Shown: piece by piece, positions 11,895 through 62,343 of the stretch
Numbering within the stretch: the first letter of the stretch is position 1
Layout: each line of letters begins with the position of its first letter
IMG/VR virus record: IMGVR_UViG_3300013094_000017
Location: 1 to 64,000 of that record
Direction: 5' to 3' (one strand)
Length of the DNA stretch: 64,000 nt
From: a virus
Notes under the pieces: generated by a model
What the model was told of the DNA's origin: nothing
Databases searched by the model: none
The model's input: the letters and a program-made list of their open reading frames with translations, nothing else
Position numbers and translations under genes: made by a program

Positions 11895-11989
11895 GCGGTC
11901 GTAAGCAAAAGGCAAAGCTCTAGGACCTAGGTCCTAGGATAGGGAGAACCTAGTTCCCCTTGTTGGTTCGACTCCAGCCGACCGTACCA
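11895..11989 (+). tRNA. tRNA-like RNA with palindromic anticodon arm
   Basis: Acceptor GCGGTCG pairs with CGACCGT, T-arm TTGG-TTCGACT-CCAG, encoded CCA at 11987-11989, and a long variable arm make a class II tRNA shape. The anticodon position is a perfect 18-nt palindrome CTAGGACCTAGGTCCTAG, giving an even-numbered loop with no U33. No normal anticodon can be read; TAG, CTA or AGG are possible triplets. It stands alone, far from the tRNA array. Confidence 0.6.
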
Positions 11990-50485: not shown

Positions 50486-51468
50486 TGCTATTATCCGAAT
50501 TATTCCACCATAAAAAGAAACTAATAGAAGGCGGCAACGTATTTGCAGGCAAGACCACCTCTATTAAGCTCGAACACATTAAACCAACTTTAGATGCGTA
50601 CTTTGCAGAATTAAAACATCTGTTCCCAAAGAAAGCAGGCATATTTAACGAACAACATTTTGTTCCGCTCGGTTCAGTTGGTAAGAAAGCAGTATCAGGT
50701 GACATTGATCTTGGTGTTAGTGCCAGTGAACTTGTTGATAAAGAAATGAGCGATGCCAGTATAGCCGAATGGGGTATTGATCCCAAAGATGTTGCAGCAG
50801 AAGCAGAAGCCTTGCAAAAACGTGCTAGAAGTTCTACTCCAGAACAATCACGCATGAAAGCATTTAATAAATGCCTAGTACGTTATATTAATGCACATGC
50901 CCCGACATTACACTGCGATGAAACAAAAGTAACCAACGGTAATCTATTTGGATTATTTCCGCAGATAGACGAACAAGGCAATCACGTGGGCAGTGGTGTG
51001 CAAATTGATTGGATGATTGGAGATCTAAATTGGCTACGTTTCAGCTATCATTCAGCAGCATATCCAGAAGGGTCTAATGTTAAAGGTCTACACCGTACGC
51101 AATTAATGTTATCAGCGTTCCAAGTGGCAGGACTATCATTTAATCACGTTGATGGTGTTAAAGATAAAGCAACTGGAGAGATTATTGCTCGGGATCCAGA
51201 TCAAGCATTGACCATACTAGGACAACGTCTAGGATTTAAGATAACACAAGCAGATGCAGAAGATTATTATAAACTACATAATCTATTCAAAGCAAAAATG
51301 CGCCCAGAAGAATATAGTGCATTGCTAAACATCTACTTTAAGATATTAGACAGTACTCGCGCAGATATTCCTGACGATTTACAAGACGAATGGCGCAAAC
51401 GTCAATCGGCATTGGGCCTAACAGGTAAGTTCCTACCTGATAATTCAGCATTAAAGGTGAGACAATGA
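50485..51468 (+). CDS. Nucleotidyltransferase-fold protein
   Basis: 327 residues. The first part holds PLGSVGKKAVSGDIDLGV (about residues 61-78), the G-S...DxD signature of polymerase-beta-type nucleotidyltransferases. A third acidic residue could lie in VQIDWMIGDLNW. These enzymes add nucleotides to RNA, proteins or small molecules. The start MLLSELFHHKKKLIEGG is a possible capsid-targeting signal with an LIE cleavage site. It directly precedes a second such enzyme. Substrate unknown. Confidence 0.78.
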   Translation: MLLSELFHHKKKLIEGGNVFAGKTTSIKLEHIKPTLDAYFAELKHLFPKKAGIFNEQHFVPLGSVGKKAVSGDIDLGVSASELVDKEMSDASIAEWGIDPKDVAAEAEALQKRARSSTPEQSRMKAFNKCLVRYINAHAPTLHCDETKVTNGNLFGLFPQIDEQGNHVGSGVQIDWMIGDLNWLRFSYHSAAYPEGSNVKGLHRTQLMLSAFQVAGLSFNHVDGVKDKATGEIIARDPDQALTILGQRLGFKITQADAEDYYKLHNLFKAKMRPEEYSALLNIYFKILDSTRADIPDDLQDEWRKRQSALGLTGKFLPDNSALKVRQ

Positions 51469-54416
51469 GCGGAGTGGCCGGGGCAGATCGCATAAAGAGT
51501 CGTAACGATTTCAAGCAATTTCTTGCTTCCTATCAAAAACTGATTGCAAAGTTTCCTGGCTTTGTGTCAATGAACACCAGCGGAAGTTATAACAGCGATC
51601 CAAGTAAAAATGATTTTGGTGATATTGATCTTATTGTACACATTAAGTCAGATAAAGATAAACCTACTGTAAAGAAAGAACTACAAGCGTTCTTACAAGC
51701 ACAACCAGATACAGTTATTGTTCCGTTTACATCAGAGAAGCATGCCGGCAAACGTTCATACAATGCAGGTGAGCTAGTATCAGTTCGATATCATGATGAT
51801 CAATTAGGGTATTCGGCACAGATTGATAATATTGTTGCCCTAGACGAATCTGAAGCATCATTCAAGCAACAGTTCTTAGATTTGCCTGCTGAAAAGCAAG
51901 GACTAATTCTAGGCCTAGTTAAGATTGCTACAATTGAAACAGATCCTCAGAGGTTATTCAAAAGCCTGGGCATTACTGCACCGGTGCTTACACAACCAAA
52001 TGAAGAATACGAGTTTAATCTAAGCTCAGTTGAACTACAATTACGCAAGGTTACTTACAAACCAGGTACCTACGAACAAATTGGTCGCGAAGTTATTTGG
52101 ACTAGTCGCAATTTTGACGATCTAAAGAAAGTATTATATCAATACAACCTAGATGCAGACTTTGATACACTGTTAGCACGTAGCAAACAGGTAATCAAAA
52201 ATCCACGTAGCAATGCTCGTATGCAGGGTGTGTTTAGTAGTATGATTACAGTTAAATCAGGCGAGGTTGGCACTGCCAAAGGTGCCGGCAAAGAGGCTGC
52301 ATTGGGCAAAATACAACAAACATTCCGCGAAGATGTATTCAAATGGACTGATTATGAAAATATAGACAACATGGATGATAGACTACATCTTGCCGAAACG
52401 TATTTTACAACTAATGATAATTTATTTGAATCCAATGAGTCCCATGCTACTAATTATTTCTTAAGTTTACGATCAGATGCTAATAATCCAGAAAAAAATA
52501 AAAAATATATTACAGTACTATTAGGATTAGTAGGTAATAGAATTATAAAAATGCAACCAATAGAATTTGGCACTTTTATAAAAAAACAAAACGATATATT
52601 CTATATTCAATATGATAACGGTCAGATAGCAAAATTTCCGTCCGAATCAACTCAAACTAAATTAATAGCAAAAACATTTCTATTCGATACTGTTCCTTCA
52701 TATGATAAATTTAGGTCAGAAATTATGATGAAATTCAATACATCACTTCCTCCGGTTAATGAAAATCACAAGGACTACAGCTCAAAAATAAAAGAAAGCC
52801 GCTTGCTGAGAGAGATGATCAAACCACAGGCAAACACAGTGGTTTTTGCATTTGGTCGTTTTCAACCGCCTACAATTGGTCACGAGTTGCTCATTAATAC
52901 AGTAAAGAACACCGCGGCAGGAAAGAGCGCAGATTACGTCATTTATGCTTCAAAAACACAAGATTCTAAGACAAATCCATTGTCAATTAATCAAAAAATG
53001 CACTATTTAAACCTGGCATTTCCAGGTACTAACTTTGCTGCCGCTAATGCCGAAGTACGTACATTTATAGAGGCAGCAAAGATCCTTAATAACCGATATA
53101 AGAATCTTATTATGGTAGCTGGTTCAGATCGTGTACAAGCATTTGAAGAAACACTAAACAAATACAATGGCACCGAATACAATTACGATACAATCAAAGT
53201 AGTGTCAGCAGGTGAGCGTGATCCAGATTCAGATAGTGCAGCAGGTATGAGTGCAACTAAAATGCGCGAAGCCGCAGTAGCAGGTGATCTAAAACTGTTT
53301 ATGAGTGGCCTCCCAAAAACTATCGGTACTAAGGATGCCGAACAGTTGATGAAAGATATACAACAAGGATTGGTTAAACAACCAAAGACTAATATGAAAG
53401 CAAAAGAAATTACTCCAGTGGCAGAAGGCAATGAAATGTCAGATGCAGCACAGGCTAGAGAATTGATCGGTCGTGCTATGTCCAATCGCAATGAACGTCA
53501 AAAGTATTTTGACTTTATTAAATTCTTAATTAAAAAGAACGGCAAGGATTATGGTATTCAAGTACATCAACTTGCAACTAAGTTAGCCAAAGAAGGCCAA
53601 GATGGTATGGCAGGTGTAGGTATGGGCAACTATATTGTAGACAAAAGCACAACTAACGAACACATCGTTAAACACGGTAGTGGTTATAGATTGGTTAGTA
53701 AAAAGACAGGTAAGAACTTAGGTGACTTTCCGACTCGTGCTGCCGCAGAAAAACACGAACGAGAAGTACAATACTTTAAACATGCCGGTGAAAGTGTAGA
53801 AACAGACGAAGCAGCAGCGTGGCAAAAATCGTCAGGTAAGAATAAGAACGGTGGCCTTAATAAAAAAGGAGTTGCCAGTTATCGCAGAGAACATCCTGGT
53901 AGCAAACTAAAGACAGCAGTGACCAAAAAGCCTAGTGAATTAAAAGCAGGTAGTAAAGATGCTAAACGTCGCAAGAGTTTTTGCGCTCGTATGAAAGGTA
54001 TGAAGAAACATAACACTAGCTCTAAAACAGCACACGATCCAGATTCACGTATCAATAAATCACTGCGTAAATGGCACTGCGAAAGCATTGAAGAAATGGC
54101 ACAGATGATTGAGAACGCAGAACGTTTCTTAGCCGAAGCCAAGGTCGAAGAAAAGTGGACTAAGAAATACAAAGACAGTATCAACTGTTCTAATCCTAAA
54201 GGCTTTAGTCAAAAGGCACATTGCGCAGGTAAAAAGAAAAACGAAGAAACAGAGATGGAAGAAGCTAAACAACGTTTAGATCCAAAGTGCTGGAAAGGTT
54301 ATAAGAAACAAGGCACTAAGATGAAAGGCAACACTCGTGTAAACAACTGTGTGCCGGTAGACGAAAGCGTAGAAACTACTATAGCTAAACTTATTAAACT
54401 ATTAGAATCAAAATGA
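51465..54416 (+). CDS. Large fusion: nucleotidyltransferase plus HxGH nucleotidylyltransferase
   Basis: 983 residues. (1) About 1-330: nucleotidyltransferase fold with NTSGSYNSDPSKNDFGDIDL near 38-57. (2) About 310-440: an A+T-rich stretch resembling an insert. (3) About 455-640: FAFGRFQPPTIGHE, a GRFQPxTxGH motif of NMN-adenylyl or cytidylyltransferases, with AGMSATKMREA as its second motif. (4) About 640-983: basic tail with repeated Lys/Cys blocks (KRRKSFCARMKGMKKH, SNPKGFSQKAHCAGKKK). T4-like prohead-protease-type sites are scattered (LLREM, FLAEAKV). Overlaps the previous gene. It may be a packaged polyprotein. No single known protein has this order to my knowledge. Confidence 0.8.
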   Translation: MSGVAGADRIKSRNDFKQFLASYQKLIAKFPGFVSMNTSGSYNSDPSKNDFGDIDLIVHIKSDKDKPTVKKELQAFLQAQPDTVIVPFTSEKHAGKRSYNAGELVSVRYHDDQLGYSAQIDNIVALDESEASFKQQFLDLPAEKQGLILGLVKIATIETDPQRLFKSLGITAPVLTQPNEEYEFNLSSVELQLRKVTYKPGTYEQIGREVIWTSRNFDDLKKVLYQYNLDADFDTLLARSKQVIKNPRSNARMQGVFSSMITVKSGEVGTAKGAGKEAALGKIQQTFREDVFKWTDYENIDNMDDRLHLAETYFTTNDNLFESNESHATNYFLSLRSDANNPEKNKKYITVLLGLVGNRIIKMQPIEFGTFIKKQNDIFYIQYDNGQIAKFPSESTQTKLIAKTFLFDTVPSYDKFRSEIMMKFNTSLPPVNENHKDYSSKIKESRLLREMIKPQANTVVFAFGRFQPPTIGHELLINTVKNTAAGKSADYVIYASKTQDSKTNPLSINQKMHYLNLAFPGTNFAAANAEVRTFIEAAKILNNRYKNLIMVAGSDRVQAFEETLNKYNGTEYNYDTIKVVSAGERDPDSDSAAGMSATKMREAAVAGDLKLFMSGLPKTIGTKDAEQLMKDIQQGLVKQPKTNMKAKEITPVAEGNEMSDAAQARELIGRAMSNRNERQKYFDFIKFLIKKNGKDYGIQVHQLATKLAKEGQDGMAGVGMGNYIVDKSTTNEHIVKHGSGYRLVSKKTGKNLGDFPTRAAAEKHEREVQYFKHAGESVETDEAAAWQKSSGKNKNGGLNKKGVASYRREHPGSKLKTAVTKKPSELKAGSKDAKRRKSFCARMKGMKKHNTSSKTAHDPDSRINKSLRKWHCESIEEMAQMIENAERFLAEAKVEEKWTKKYKDSINCSNPKGFSQKAHCAGKKKNEETEMEEAKQRLDPKCWKGYKKQGTKMKGNTRVNNCVPVDESVETTIAKLIKLLESK

Positions 54417-55871: not shown

Positions 55872-55897
55872 CAATAAATAAAAACGAGAAAGGTTCC

Positions 55898-55913
55898 GCG
55901 AGCCATAAGTCGC
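55898..55913 (+). promoter_or_regulatory. Hairpin 1 of polymerase leader (operator candidate)
   Basis: Stem GCGA/TCGC with the 8-nt loop GCCATAAG. First of two hairpins with the same loop in front of gene 43. T4 gp43 represses its own mRNA by binding a hairpin with an 8-nt loop at this place. Confidence 0.6.
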
Positions 55914-55926
55914 ATTTTGAAGGTCA

Positions 55927-55942
55927 GCCAGCCATAAGTGGT
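55927..55942 (+). promoter_or_regulatory. Hairpin 2 of polymerase leader (operator candidate)
   Basis: Stem GCCA/TGGT (one G-U) with an identical 8-nt loop GCCATAAG. It ends 3 nt before the AGGAG ribosome site of the polymerase gene, well placed to block translation. Confidence 0.6.
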
Positions 55943-55956
55943 ATTAGGAGAAGTAA

Positions 55957-58629
55957 ATGTCGTATGTAGATTCCATCTGGGATCGTGACAATGATATTGT
56001 CAAGGTCGTCGAACGAGATCCAATCAAGGGTCGTATATTCCAACAATTTCCAGCACGCTATGTGTTCTATTATCCAGACGGTCGAGGAAAATACACATCA
56101 ATCTTTGGGGAACCATTGACCAAGGTTGTTAGTAAGAGTTGGAAAGAAAATGTTAAAGAACAAAAGATTCATTCAAGTCACAAACTGTACGAGAGCGATA
56201 TCAATCCTGTATTCCGTTGTTTAGAAGAAAATTATCTAGGTAAAGATGCTCCAAAACTAAATGTAGCATTTTGGGATATTGAGGTGGACTTTGATCCAGA
56301 ACGTGGCTATGCTAGTCCAGACGATGCGTTTATGCCAATTACTGCTATTGCAGTACACCTACAATGGTTAGACACTCTAGTGTGTTTAGCTGTACCTCCT
56401 AAAACATTAACTATGGCAGAAGCTCAGGAACAGGTTAAAGATTTTCCAAATACTATCCTATTCGAAACAGAATACGAAATGTTGGATACCTTCTTAAATT
56501 TAATTGAAGATGCAGATGTGTTAAGTGGATGGAACAGTGAAGGCTTTGATATGCCCTACACAGTTAATCGCATTATTAAAACTCTGAGCAAAGAAGATAC
56601 TCGTAGATTATGTCTATTCGATCAACTGCCAAAAAAACGTGAATACGAAAAATATGGGAAACAGGCCGTTACTTATGATCTAGTTGGCCGTGTTCATTTA
56701 GATAGTTTAGAATTATATCGCAAGTACACTTACGAAGAACGTCACAGTTATTCGTTGGATGCTATTGCTGAATATGAACTAGGCGAACGCAAAACACAAT
56801 ACGAAGGCACACTTGATCAACTATACAACAATGACTTTAAAAAGTTTATTGAATATAACCGTCAAGATACTGCCTTGTTAGATCGCTTAGATAAGAAATT
56901 AAAATTCTTAGACCTTGCTAACACACTAGCACATGATTGTACAGTATTGCTACAAACAACTATGGGTGCTGTGGCTGTTACAGAACAGGCTATTATTAAC
57001 GAGGCACATCATTTAGGAATGATTGTTCCAAGTCGTCCTCGAAGAGATGATTCAGTTGACACGCAGGCCGCAGGTGCTTATGTAGCATATCCAAAAAAAG
57101 GTATTCACGATTGGATTGGTTCAATGGATATTAACAGCTTATATCCAAGTGCAATTCGTGCCCTAAACATGGGTCCAGAAACTATTATTGGTCAATTACG
57201 TCAAGACTATACCAAAGCAGAAATCGAAGCCAAGATGGCTAAAAATGGCGGCAAGTTCGCTATGGCGTGGGAAGGTAAGTTTGGCGCAAATGAATATGAG
57301 TTTGTTATGGCCAAAGATAAAACTAACGAAATCATTATTGATTGGGAAGATGGGCACACTGATGTAATGAGTGGTGCTCAGATCTATGAGCTAGTATTTG
57401 AAAGTAATCAACCTTGGATGCTATCAGCAAACGGAACTATCTTTACCTACGAGAAAGAAGGTATTATTCCGGGATTATTAAAACGCTGGTATGCTGAACG
57501 TAAAGACATGCAGAAAAAACTAAAGGAAGCTATCGATGTTGGTAACAAAATTGAAGAAGAGTATTGGGATAAACGACAACTTGTTAAGAAAATTAATCTT
57601 AATAGTCTGTATGGGGCTATTCTTAACGCTGGTTGCCGCTTCTTTGATAACCGTATTGGACAATCCACCACCCTTACTGGGCGACGAATCGCTAGGCATA
57701 TGGCCGCTAAGATAAATGAGATTATCACAGGCGATTACGACCATGTAGGTAAAAGCATTATCTACGGTGATACTGATAGTGCGTACTTTAGCGCATACTT
57801 AACTTTAAAGAATGAAATCAATAAAGGTCAACTTACTTGGAATAAAGATACTGTTATTGATCTATATAATACAGTAGCAGACGAAGTAAATGGTACATTT
57901 CCTCAATTGATGCTAGATGATTTCCATTGTCCTAAATCCAGAGGCGAAGTAATTAAAGCAGGGCGTGAAATTGTTGCCATCAAAGGATTGTTTATTACCA
58001 AGAAGCGTTATGCTGTATTGTATTACGACAAAGACGGTAATCGTTATGACGTAGACGGCAAGGTTGGCAAGATCAAAGCTATGGGTTTAGATTTGAAGCG
58101 CAGTGATACTCCGGAGTTTATGCAGAACTTTTTGAGCGATGTATTAACCAAGGTGTTAAATGGTGCTGAAGAATCAGAAATTCTTGAGATGATATCAGAG
58201 TTCCGTACCAAGTTTAAAGTGCGTCCAGGCTGGGAAAAAGGTAGCCCAAAACGTGCTAACAACATTGCTGCCTATCAAGCCAAAGAAGAAAAGGCAGGTA
58301 AGAGTAATATGCCCGGACACGTTCGAGCTAGTATCAATTGGAATACTTTGAAGCGCATGAATGGTGACAAATATTCTATGAACATTGTAGATGGTATGAA
58401 GGTTATCGTTTGCAAGATGAAAGACAATCCACTCGGATATACCTCAATCGCATATCCAGTAGATGAACTGCGTTTACCTAAATGGTTCCAAGAATTACCA
58501 TTTGATCACGCAGAGATGGAAGCTACTATTATTAACAACAAACTAGATAATCTTATTGGAGTATTGGAGATTGACCTTGTGTCAACCCAAAACAACAATA
58601 CATTTTCTTCGTTATTTGATTTTGAATAA
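55957..58629 (+). CDS. 43: DNA polymerase, family B, T4 gp43-like
   Basis: 890 residues (T4 gp43 is 898). The replicative polymerase with 3'-5' exonuclease. Exonuclease motif FWDIEVDFD near 104, NSEGFDMPY near 190, then polymerase motifs DINSLYPSAI near 391, KKINLNSLYGAIL near 546, IYGDTDSAYFS near 602. The C-terminus SLFDFE fits a clamp-binding peptide. AGGAG precedes the ATG. No intron or frameshift. Leader hairpins suggest autoregulation. Confidence 0.97.
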   Translation: MSYVDSIWDRDNDIVKVVERDPIKGRIFQQFPARYVFYYPDGRGKYTSIFGEPLTKVVSKSWKENVKEQKIHSSHKLYESDINPVFRCLEENYLGKDAPKLNVAFWDIEVDFDPERGYASPDDAFMPITAIAVHLQWLDTLVCLAVPPKTLTMAEAQEQVKDFPNTILFETEYEMLDTFLNLIEDADVLSGWNSEGFDMPYTVNRIIKTLSKEDTRRLCLFDQLPKKREYEKYGKQAVTYDLVGRVHLDSLELYRKYTYEERHSYSLDAIAEYELGERKTQYEGTLDQLYNNDFKKFIEYNRQDTALLDRLDKKLKFLDLANTLAHDCTVLLQTTMGAVAVTEQAIINEAHHLGMIVPSRPRRDDSVDTQAAGAYVAYPKKGIHDWIGSMDINSLYPSAIRALNMGPETIIGQLRQDYTKAEIEAKMAKNGGKFAMAWEGKFGANEYEFVMAKDKTNEIIIDWEDGHTDVMSGAQIYELVFESNQPWMLSANGTIFTYEKEGIIPGLLKRWYAERKDMQKKLKEAIDVGNKIEEEYWDKRQLVKKINLNSLYGAILNAGCRFFDNRIGQSTTLTGRRIARHMAAKINEIITGDYDHVGKSIIYGDTDSAYFSAYLTLKNEINKGQLTWNKDTVIDLYNTVADEVNGTFPQLMLDDFHCPKSRGEVIKAGREIVAIKGLFITKKRYAVLYYDKDGNRYDVDGKVGKIKAMGLDLKRSDTPEFMQNFLSDVLTKVLNGAEESEILEMISEFRTKFKVRPGWEKGSPKRANNIAAYQAKEEKAGKSNMPGHVRASINWNTLKRMNGDKYSMNIVDGMKVIVCKMKDNPLGYTSIAYPVDELRLPKWFQELPFDHAEMEATIINNKLDNLIGVLEIDLVSTQNNNTFSSLFDFE

Positions 58630-58676: not shown

Positions 58677-59567
58677 ATGAACTACAAACTACATTATGAA
58701 TTATTGATTAAAAAAGCAAAGAATCGTATACTCGATCCGCTGATTAAAGTGGAATCTCATCATATTTTACCAAGATCAATGGGTGGCACCGATATGAACG
58801 AAAATCTAATAGCGTTGTTTCCGAGAGAACATTTAATTGCGCATTTATTGTTATGGAAAATTCATCAATCTAATGCAATGACTAATGCGGCGTGGCAAAT
58901 GTCACATAGGAAAATTGGAGATGAATATATTAAAATTAACTCTCGTATATATGAAAAATTAAGAATAGCCTTTAGTGAAACACAAACCAAAAGAATGGCA
59001 GACCCTAAAGTAAGAGAACACTTAAAAAATATTAATTTAGGGCATCCCGTAAGTATCGAAAGCAGACAAAAAATATCTGCCGCACTTACAGGAAAGAAAC
59101 AACCAAACGAGTTAGTAGAAAAAAGATCTATAGGTATTAGAAAATATATGTCAGAATCACGTAAAGGAAAAACCTGGGAAGAAATATACGGTAAAAAAGT
59201 TTCTAAAAAAATGAGAGAAGATATCAGTAATGCTAATAAAGGAAAAATACTCACCGATTCCCACAAAGAAAATATTAGCAAAGGAAATACTGGTAAGCTG
59301 TTATCCGAAGAAACGAAAGAAAAAATATCAACATCTAACAAAGGAAAGGTTAGAACCGAGGAGGCAAAAAAACGAATATCAGAATCCCATATAGGAAAAC
59401 TATTATCAGAGGAACATAAAACAAAAATAAGTGAATCAAATAAAGGAAAACCTAAATCAGAAGAGACTAAACAAAAAATGTCAGAATCTAAAAAAGGAAA
59501 AACGTTCACTGAAGACCATAAGAAAAAACTTAGTGAAGCAGCAAAACAAAGAAAAAAGAGATTTTGA
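58677..59567 (+). CDS. HNH homing endonuclease with many NUMOD3 repeats
   Basis: 296 residues. HNH core [19 protein letters not shown] near 26-44 and [12 protein letters not shown]. At least six NUMOD3-type repeats follow (for example [31 protein letters not shown]). A+T-richer than its neighbours. It sits between polymerase and clamp genes, a typical homing site in T4-like phages. GGAG before the ATG. Confidence 0.9.
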
Positions 59568-60369: not shown

Positions 60370-60728
60370 TGATTAAGAATATCGTACAAGCAAGCTCATT
60401 CGTAACTGTCAGTAGTTATATGCCTCAGGTATATGGATCAGGCAATATGAGTGGGCAGATGCGATATAATACCAATTCACAATCTGTTGAAGTATATGAC
60501 GGAAATAATTGGATTAGTATTAGTCAACAAGCATCAGTTGGATTGAGCTACGAAGCAGAAGAAGCAATGCGCTGGGCCATTAACAAAAAACGCGAAGAAG
60601 CAGAGATTAAAGAACTAGCAGAGAAACATAAAGCTGTGGCTGCTGCATTAGAAAACCTAAATAAAGCACAAGAACAATTAAAGATAGTAGCACACTTATC
60701 GAAGGATACAGATGAAACAACAAGTTAA
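60369..60728 (+). CDS. Conserved T4-like protein of unknown function
   Basis: 119 residues. A beta start with SGQMRYNTNSQSVEVYDG, as in phage structural caps, then a long charged helix (EAEEAMRWAINKKREEAEIK). TAATG overlap with the clamp gene and 17-nt overlap with the next. I recall relatives in T4-like phages; function unknown. Confidence 0.7.
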   Translation: MIKNIVQASSFVTVSSYMPQVYGSGNMSGQMRYNTNSQSVEVYDGNNWISISQQASVGLSYEAEEAMRWAINKKREEAEIKELAEKHKAVAAALENLNKAQEQLKIVAHLSKDTDETTS

Positions 60729-62343
60729 CCTAACCCCATTACAGAAAGACTACGCAGTATATCTACCAGCGATTAGTTCATTCTATAGTACCTATATCGC
60801 CAAACAACGATTAGAGAAATTTATTTCAGATGACCGTATTCCAGCAGGGTTTGATCGCGGTATTGAAGGTATGAATTTCTTAAATCCAGAAGAAGGATAC
60901 TTTACCTACAAGTACGGTCTATATTCAGCAGGTCACGCACAGTTAGATTTGCAAAAATCAATTACACAAGAGTCAATGATTCAACAACGTGATCGTGCCA
61001 ACACAATGATCTTAGGTGACTCAGGTGGTTACCAAATTGGTAAGGGCGTTCTTAAGTTTGATTGGTTAAATTTTGATGGTCCGGCTGCTAACAAAACACG
61101 ACAAAGCATCTTAGAGTGGTTAGAAATGACTGCTGATTGGTCAATGATGTTAGACGTTCCGACATGGGCATGTGATCGTATCCATAGTCCAAAGACAGGA
61201 TTGAAATCTTTTGAAGACTGTTTAGAAAAAACTAGATTTAATAATGACTATTTCTTAAAAAATCGTTTAGGTCATACCAAATGGTTGAATGTATTACAAG
61301 GTGGTGATTGGGATACTGCGGAGAAATGGTACAACGGTGTTAAAGAATATAGTGATCCAAATGGTCCTTATGCGGGCAGTGAAGCAGAAGGTTGGGCATT
61401 TGGTGGTGCTAATATGTGTAAGATGGACATCACACTTAAACGTCTAATGACTATGCGTGAAGATGGTCTACTAAAAGGTAAGAATTGGATTCACTTCTTG
61501 GGTACAGCACAATTAGATTGGGCCTGTTACTTAACCAGCATCCAAAGACAAATAAGGAAACATATCAATGAAGAACTTACAATATCGTTTGATTGCGCAT
61601 CACCATTCATTGCAACTGCGCACGGGCTTGTCTACACTAATGCACAACATACCCCAAAACGTTGGAGTGTCATTATGGACAAGGCGCCTGATAATAAAGC
61701 ACTTTCAGGTAGCGATATCCCTTTTCCGTTCGAAAGCGAGTTTGGAAGACGGTTAACCATGAAAGATATTGCCTACTATGACCTAGGTGTGCCAAAAACA
61801 CAGGAAGAATTAGGCAAGGATGTTAAATTTAATCACTTAAATCCTGAACATTATACAGTAGTTCCAAAACTTAATAAGTTAGGTAAGATTCCTAACAAAA
61901 CAAGTTGGGATAGTTTTGCCTATGCATTAATGATGGGACATAATGTTTACTGTCATATTGTTGCTGTACAACGTGCTAATCAATTAGCTGACATCGAATC
62001 AACGAGATTTAAACCAGATTGGCGTCATTGGAAGAAATTAAACGCAAAAGATTCAGGTGGTGATCAGTTTAGTGATTGGGTTCCTCGTAATATATTGTAC
62101 TTCAATCAATTCATTAAAGAATTGTTTAACACCCAGACTAAAGAAGAAGCGTTTGAGATGATTCAACAGGCTCGTCCATTCTTAACAAGTTTAGAAGGTG
62201 CAAGGCTACAAGGTGGACCTGCTCAAAATACATTTACTAATTTATTTGATGTTGAAGAAATAACTACAGCAGAAGAAGTAGACTTAGAAAATCCAGACGA
62301 TGACGAACTACGTGCATTAGAACAAGGACTAAATGATGAATAG
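60712..62343 (+). CDS. DpdA-like 7-deazaguanine DNA transglycosylase (TGT fold)
   Basis: 543 residues. TIM-barrel tRNA-guanine-transglycosylase type: MILGDSGGYQIGKG near 101 holds the catalytic-type Asp, and EGWAFGGANM near 223 is the GLAIGG-type loop. The length and sequence fit the phage DpdA branch, which replaces guanine in DNA with a 7-deazaguanine and so resists restriction. QueD (22363) supplies an early precursor enzyme. The other steps (QueE, QueC, FolE) are not in this window. It could act on RNA instead, but phage context favours DNA. Confidence 0.85.
   Translation: MKQQVNLTPLQKDYAVYLPAISSFYSTYIAKQRLEKFISDDRIPAGFDRGIEGMNFLNPEEGYFTYKYGLYSAGHAQLDLQKSITQESMIQQRDRANTMILGDSGGYQIGKGVLKFDWLNFDGPAANKTRQSILEWLEMTADWSMMLDVPTWACDRIHSPKTGLKSFEDCLEKTRFNNDYFLKNRLGHTKWLNVLQGGDWDTAEKWYNGVKEYSDPNGPYAGSEAEGWAFGGANMCKMDITLKRLMTMREDGLLKGKNWIHFLGTAQLDWACYLTSIQRQIRKHINEELTISFDCASPFIATAHGLVYTNAQHTPKRWSVIMDKAPDNKALSGSDIPFPFESEFGRRLTMKDIAYYDLGVPKTQEELGKDVKFNHLNPEHYTVVPKLNKLGKIPNKTSWDSFAYALMMGHNVYCHIVAVQRANQLADIESTRFKPDWRHWKKLNAKDSGGDQFSDWVPRNILYFNQFIKELFNTQTKEEAFEMIQQARPFLTSLEGARLQGGPAQNTFTNLFDVEEITTAEEVDLENPDDDELRALEQGLNDE

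Follow-up and report, generated by a model that had tools for sequence, protein, structure and literature searches.

Tandem pseudoknots before the DNA polymerase gene of large uncultured phages, a candidate doubled translational operator

In the DNA analyzed here (a whole stretch of 64,000 nucleotides, referred to as the window) and in the leaders of related phages, the gene of a T4-like family-B DNA polymerase (polB) is preceded by two short, similar RNA elements, and we are highly confident that each of them is an H-type pseudoknot, that the element is doubled and that it is specific to polB. This reading comes from sequence comparison, which supports both helices of each unit, the tandem arrangement, the spacing, the specificity for polB and the position. 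On the basis of its position and specificity, the tandem element very likely regulates polymerase synthesis. By analogy with T4, we further infer, with moderate confidence, that it acts as a doubled translational operator whose ligand is the polymerase itself.

Organization of the polymerase leader

The features of the leader and of the adjacent genes are listed in Table 1. Unit 1 contains the hairpin GCGA-GCCATAAG-TCGC and unit 2 the hairpin GCCA-GCCATAAG-TGGT, whose last pair is G-U. The two hairpins end 43 and 14 nt 5' of the polymerase ATG, and the sequence confirms the preliminary description, which had reported two hairpins with identical 8-nt loops at these distances. In the window leader, each hairpin is preceded by AAGGU, in which GGU pairs with the GCC of the loop, and both units aligned in register form a 22-nt direct repeat with 82% identity and a spacing of 29 nt. 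The window holds one case of two 4-bp hairpins that share an 8-nt loop and are at most 40 nt apart, and 30 Markov-1 resamples of the same length (64 kb) hold none.

The nested minimum free energy of the leader is ordinary (z = -0.63), and nested folding favours an upstream GGUUC/GAGCC pairing over hairpin 1; the case for the element is therefore comparative and not thermodynamic. Nested minimum free energy folding of the leader was dropped as uninformative, because a pseudoknot is not representable in it.

Table 1. Features of the polymerase leader and adjacent genes in the window.
Feature	Positions	Strand	Basis
Upstream 91-aa gene, phage transcription-regulator-like	55596..55871	+	phrog_12534, 1e-17; phrog_639 transcriptional regulator, 4e-6
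Putative T4-like late-promoter -10 element, AATAAATA	55873..55880	+	ATAAATA box statistics in the window and relatives
S1 5' strand of unit 1, GGU	55892..55894	+	Pairs with loop GCC 55902-55904; S1 covariation
Unit 1 hairpin: S2 GCGA/UCGC; loop = GCC (S1 3' strand) + AUAAG (L3)	55898..55913	+	Sequence; S2 covariation at all 5 modelled pairs
AU-rich spacer between units, ATTTTGAA	55914..55921	+	Length compensates for unit 2 length
S1 5' strand of unit 2, GGU	55922..55924	+	Pairs with loop GCC 55931-55933
Unit 2 hairpin: S2 GCCA/UGGU; loop = GCC (S1 3' strand) + AUAAG (L3)	55927..55942	+	Sequence; unit 2 covariation; ends 3 nt before the Shine-Dalgarno sequence
Shine-Dalgarno AGGAG of polymerase gene	55946..55950	+	Read from sequence
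Family-B DNA polymerase, 890 aa, T4/RB69 gp43-like	55957..58629	+	PHROG 262, E 1e-193; Pfam DNA_pol_B; best PDB matches RB69 gp43, 1clq E 1e-60

The product of the upstream 91-aa gene is possibly gp33-like. Directly 3' of the polymerase gene lies an HNH homing endonuclease gene with NUMOD3 motifs (58677-59567), and in PA5oct the polymerase gene is split by a homing endonuclease gene. The window also encodes a 543-aa protein (60712-62343) with no Pfam or PHROG match, which by eye is like a tRNA-guanine transglycosylase-like DpdA (DSGGYQ motif), and a 983-aa protein (51465-54416) with a cytidylyltransferase-like segment and DUF6321.

Putative late promoter

The T4-type late promoter box ATAAATA occurs in ten copies on the + strand of the window, nine of which are located within 150 nt before an ORF start, and one copy lies at position 55874. 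Where relatives' leaders have a TAAATA-like box, it ends 11-12 nt 5' of unit 1 in 82 of 104 cases. The polymerase mRNA is probably started by a T4-like late promoter just 5' of unit 1, with a predicted RNA start at about 55886, 6 nt downstream of the -10 element as in T4. With a start near this position, the two pseudoknots would make up nearly the whole 5' UTR. Further ATAAATA copies at positions 11989, 21577, 35877, 41706, 49596 and 50064, located 7-21 nt before ORF starts, likely belong to a set of T4-type late promoters.

Conservation of the tandem units

A scan of IMG/VR with the polymerase as query yielded 80 loci with 81-100% identity, and two hairpins with GCC-type loops were found in all 80 leaders. 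Some of these are imperfect, the variants including a G-G mismatch in unit 2 of two loci (L055 and L067) and one extra loop base in some units. Two more scans provided relatives at 73-83% identity and, via a Phosso query, at about 50-69%. Among the 225 distinct leaders with a polB at least 70% identical, 210 contain two complete units (208 with two strict units and two with three according to the detector). The remaining 15 contain one strict unit, and an imperfect second unit is readable by eye in 14 of them; in L492 the start is displaced. The background of the detector is two units in 16 of 3000 random 90-nt pieces of the window. The 3' end of unit 2 is 10-16 nt from the start in most leaders, directly at the Shine-Dalgarno sequence, and these positions, together with the 210 doubled leaders, uphold the earlier proposal of a doubled cis-element at the place of the T4 gp43 operator.

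At least one unit was detected in 16 of the 21 leaders with a polB identity of 64-70%, and in 8 of the 47 below 64%. The units are absent in the closest named relatives, namely PA5oct, Paride, CBB, GAP32, RaK2, Phosso, Atu_ph07, SCTP-2 and Vibrio 2.275.O, and no close relative of the window phage is in culture. Since these named relatives and 39 of the 47 polymerases below 64% identity are without units, autoregulation in the tandem-unit form is not general. In the related jumbo phages PA5oct, CBB, Paride, GAP32 and RaK2 (L081, L085, L088, L089 and L090), a terminator-like hairpin with a T-run, located between the upstream gene and polB, replaces the pseudoknots. Unit 2 (GGC/GCC) is retained in a sister clade with about 65% identity (L134, L145, L146, L157 and L170), and the first element of these leaders is diverged, its hairpin having another loop (ACGTTAC type) and variable stems. 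In L496, unit 1 is degenerate.

Two crossing helices in each unit

A GGY lies 5' of each hairpin stem, mostly at a distance of 1-3 nt. It can be matched with RCY, the three bases that open the loop, and the three resulting pairs (S1) cross the hairpin stem (S2), which is the topology of an H-type pseudoknot. Gap-free alignments comprised 72 distinct sequences for unit 1 and 53 for unit 2. S2 is paired in 94% of the cells in unit 1 and in 99.6% in unit 2, with many two-sided changes, and compensatory changes were found at five of the five modelled pairs in unit 1 and at three of five in unit 2. The percentage paired, the number of two-sided changes and the covariation score of S2 all exceed those of 500 shuffles, and every slid control fails.

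The S1 cells are all paired in both alignments (columns 3-5/13-15 of unit 1 in 100% of the 72 sequences). Because S1 is nearly invariant, its rare changes from GGU/GCC to AGU/GCU are decisive. At the diagnostic position, 433 cases of GG-/--C, 22 of AG-/--U and no mixed combination were counted in 296 distinct leaders (Fisher p of 6e-38, a value that ignores relatedness). AGU/GCU is found in four separate tips of the polymerase tree, the neighbours of each being GGU/GCC. Recombination among leaders could mean that fewer of these changes are independent; three or more origins are likely, because L057 and L568 differ in the stem or L1 and because the sister clade L098/L118 has AGT/GCT in unit 2, as judged by eye. 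The pairing was also tested as a prediction on DNA fetched by the loop only: AGT was present in 17 of 17 polB leaders that have a GCT loop (16 in the usual register and L568 shifted by one), and at 3 of 75 unrelated GCT hairpins used as a control. The third S1 pair is looser, U-G, C-G and U-A being common, with exceptions in L708 (GGC/ACC, C-A) and L231 (GGT/TCC, U-U).

Cross-unit pairing, in which GGY would pair with the loop of the other unit, was rejected: unit 2 remains GGT/GCC among the AGT/GCT leaders listed, and S1 pairing is therefore within a unit. A role of GGU as a decoy Shine-Dalgarno sequence was ruled out by the covariation. The preliminary description had taken the constancy of the loop as a sign of a protein that reads it; the S1 covariation (433/0/0/22) speaks against this, as the GCC instead primarily pairs with the upstream GGU. 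The natural reading is that S1 and S2 form simultaneously, and a switch between two exclusive hairpins may be compatible with the covariation alone.

It is important to mention that the stems of the window are only 4 bp long and that the stability of the nested fold is ordinary, as would be expected for chance hairpins or for a DNA-level repeat without RNA function. We nevertheless regard the probability of this explanation as next to negligible, since two crossing helices covary, which contradicts it, and the units are conserved across relatives with a constant strand and distance to the polB start.

Loop identity and spacing

With position C2 of the loop serving as an anchor of detection, the constant loop positions are A6 and A7 in both units and A4 in unit 1 only, whereas positions 4 (in unit 2), 5 and 8 are variable. 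Among 107 leaders of relatives, the loops of the two units are identical in just 9. The identical loops of the window phage are incidental; the underlying constraint is real and mostly structural. The expectation that stems would covary around constant loops in relatives was thus borne out for the stems, as S2 covaries, and only in part for the loops, which are constrained but vary at the positions named and usually differ within a leader.

The loop-to-loop distance is 28-30 nt in 105 of the 107 leaders. Spacer length (5-10) and the GGY-to-loop distance of unit 2 (8-12) compensate each other (r = -0.89), and the variance of their sum is 0.40; when the parts were shuffled 5000 times, it averaged 3.27 and never fell below 2.18. 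Such constant spacing is suggestive of two sites used at a fixed pitch and would suit two bound molecules; cassette swapping could carry the spacer and the unit together.

Specificity for polB

A covariance model of unit 1 (hairpin and flanks) gave convincing matches only at the polB leader in the 259-kb record of the window and ten other large records. Weak matches elsewhere in these 11 records (E 0.07 and above) were rejected, the best two, in L265 and L270, lying in or against the frame of unrelated ORFs. When IMG/VR was scanned with two unit sequences, 138 distinct sites were obtained, of which 131 are located before polB; of the other seven, one is the leader of the window itself, truncated by the end of a fragment, and six are chance matches in other contigs. 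All 8 matches in a GTDB scan are chance matches and offer no host clue. The units are always on the polB strand and at the same distance from the polB start. In L166 and L168 (416-1501), an ORF of about 340 aa is located between the tandem element and polB; as the polymerase start overlaps the end of this ORF, the leader still heads a (two-gene) transcription unit.

A 5'-terminal structure without a dedicated ligand, which would protect the mRNA 5' end from decay or serve as a ribosome standby or enhancer element, would agree with unit 1 beginning some 6 nt into the mRNA, provided that the late promoter is correctly assigned, and structured 5' leaders can be standby elements, as excerpts of PMC7708055 describe for the tisB pseudoknot. 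However, many late mRNAs would profit from such a structure, which nonetheless occurs only at polB, and it would require neither the fixed loop-to-loop spacing nor the doubling. We consider this explanation quite unlikely.

A tandem riboswitch for a metabolite, e.g. a nucleotide or a 7-deazaguanine precursor, is highly improbable. The preQ1-I and SAM/SAH riboswitches are like the units in size, topology class and A-rich third loop, and it is generally known that small riboswitches include H-type pseudoknots with A-rich third loops and that tandem arrays exist. The SAM/SAH riboswitch is presented as H-type in excerpts of PMC7367207. In contrast, the units have a shorter first loop, their constant unpaired bases are only AA (plus A4 in unit 1), which leaves little for a ligand pocket, they precede no metabolic gene, and a search of 4227 Rfam families, including preQ1 and SAM riboswitches, gave no match at E up to 10.

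Comparison with the T4 operators

The gp43 polymerases of T4 and RB69 are autogenous repressors with a single operator hairpin containing an 8-nt loop (PMC3014915, PMC535899), for which there is no evidence of a pseudoknot according to the review by Uzan and Miller (PMC3014915). The T4 and RB69 leaders were fetched and scanned, and one operator hairpin with the loop AATAACTC was found, ending 18 (T4) and 12 (RB69) nt before the ATG. No S1-like triple matching the loop was found upstream in these two operators, and the unit model gave no significant match to the two leaders (best E 0.36). The tandem element is like the gp43 operator in being located in the leader of a homologous T4/RB69-type family-B polymerase, beside the ribosome site, and in combining a 4-5 bp stem and an 8-nt loop at such a distance from the start. 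It is unlike it in that the gp43 operator is a single plain hairpin with the loop AATAACUC, whereas two pseudoknot units with the loop RCYNNAAR are found here. The loop sequence also differs from that of T4, as had been noted earlier: the gp43 operator loop has UAAC (UAAA in RB49) (PMC3014915), whereas the loop here is GCCAUAAG, with UAAA or UAAG in many, not all, relatives. The tandem element may thus work like the gp43 operator, but it departs from it in two defining structural features (single hairpin, no pseudoknot), and for this reason we do not file it as a member.

The gene 32 element of T4, T2 and RB69, which a 2010 review considered to be maybe the sole viral pseudoknot in translational autoregulation (PMC3014915), is likewise an H-type pseudoknot in the leader of a phage replication gene, 5' of the ribosome site. 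However, it is a single pseudoknot of ~28 nt that regulates the SSB gene; in T4 it lies some 67 nt upstream, with unstructured UUAAA repeats after it (PMC3014915, PMC535899), whereas here two pseudoknots lie near the start, before polB. The same tandem-pseudoknot operator could have another phage or host ligand, such as a gp32-like SSB nucleating at the pseudoknot or the adjacent transcription-factor-like protein. Indeed, gp32 is the protein that binds the phage autoregulatory pseudoknot described so far (PMC3014915, PMC535899), the AUAAA strands are like the UAAA elements of the gene 32 operator, and the gene upstream encodes a regulator-like product. Further targets would, however, be expected of an SSB that regulates itself or of a regulator with general RNA-binding activity, and the unit is found only before polB in the 11 large records and in the IMG/VR scan; another ligand is therefore unlikely.

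Proposed autoregulation of the polymerase

In the reading that we favour, with the polymerase as the ligand, the 5' leader of the polymerase mRNA would form two tandem H-type pseudoknots, each composed of a 3-bp S1 (GGY/RCY), about 1-3 nt crossing to an S2 stem of 4-7 bp, and an A-rich strand (NNAAR) along S1. Free polymerase would bind both units and stabilise their otherwise weak folds, and the bound units, the second of which abuts the Shine-Dalgarno sequence, would block 30S binding. Polymerase in excess of replication forks would in this way shut off its own synthesis, and the doubled site may lead to tighter or cooperative repression. In T4 and RB69, gp43 uses its DNA-binding region for the operator RNA as well, and the binding of RNA and of DNA is mutually exclusive (PMC535899), in keeping with a polymerase that would regulate its own synthesis while not engaged in replication. 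We tentatively raise the possibility of a novel class of autogenous operator, in which two pseudoknots at a fixed 29-nt pitch would be bound cooperatively by two molecules of a replicative family-B polymerase, or by two faces of a single molecule, and whose evolutionary origin would be separate from that of the T4 hairpin operator.

The only replicative polymerases whose translational autoregulation has so far been detailed are those of T4 and RB69, where a single hairpin is used, and in a large clade of uncultured phages the homologous polymerase is preceded by two pseudoknots of constant pitch. Naturally occurring compensatory changes (AGU/GCU versus GGU/GCC) and differences in spacing can be taken directly from the alignment to study polymerase-RNA recognition and two-site cooperativity.
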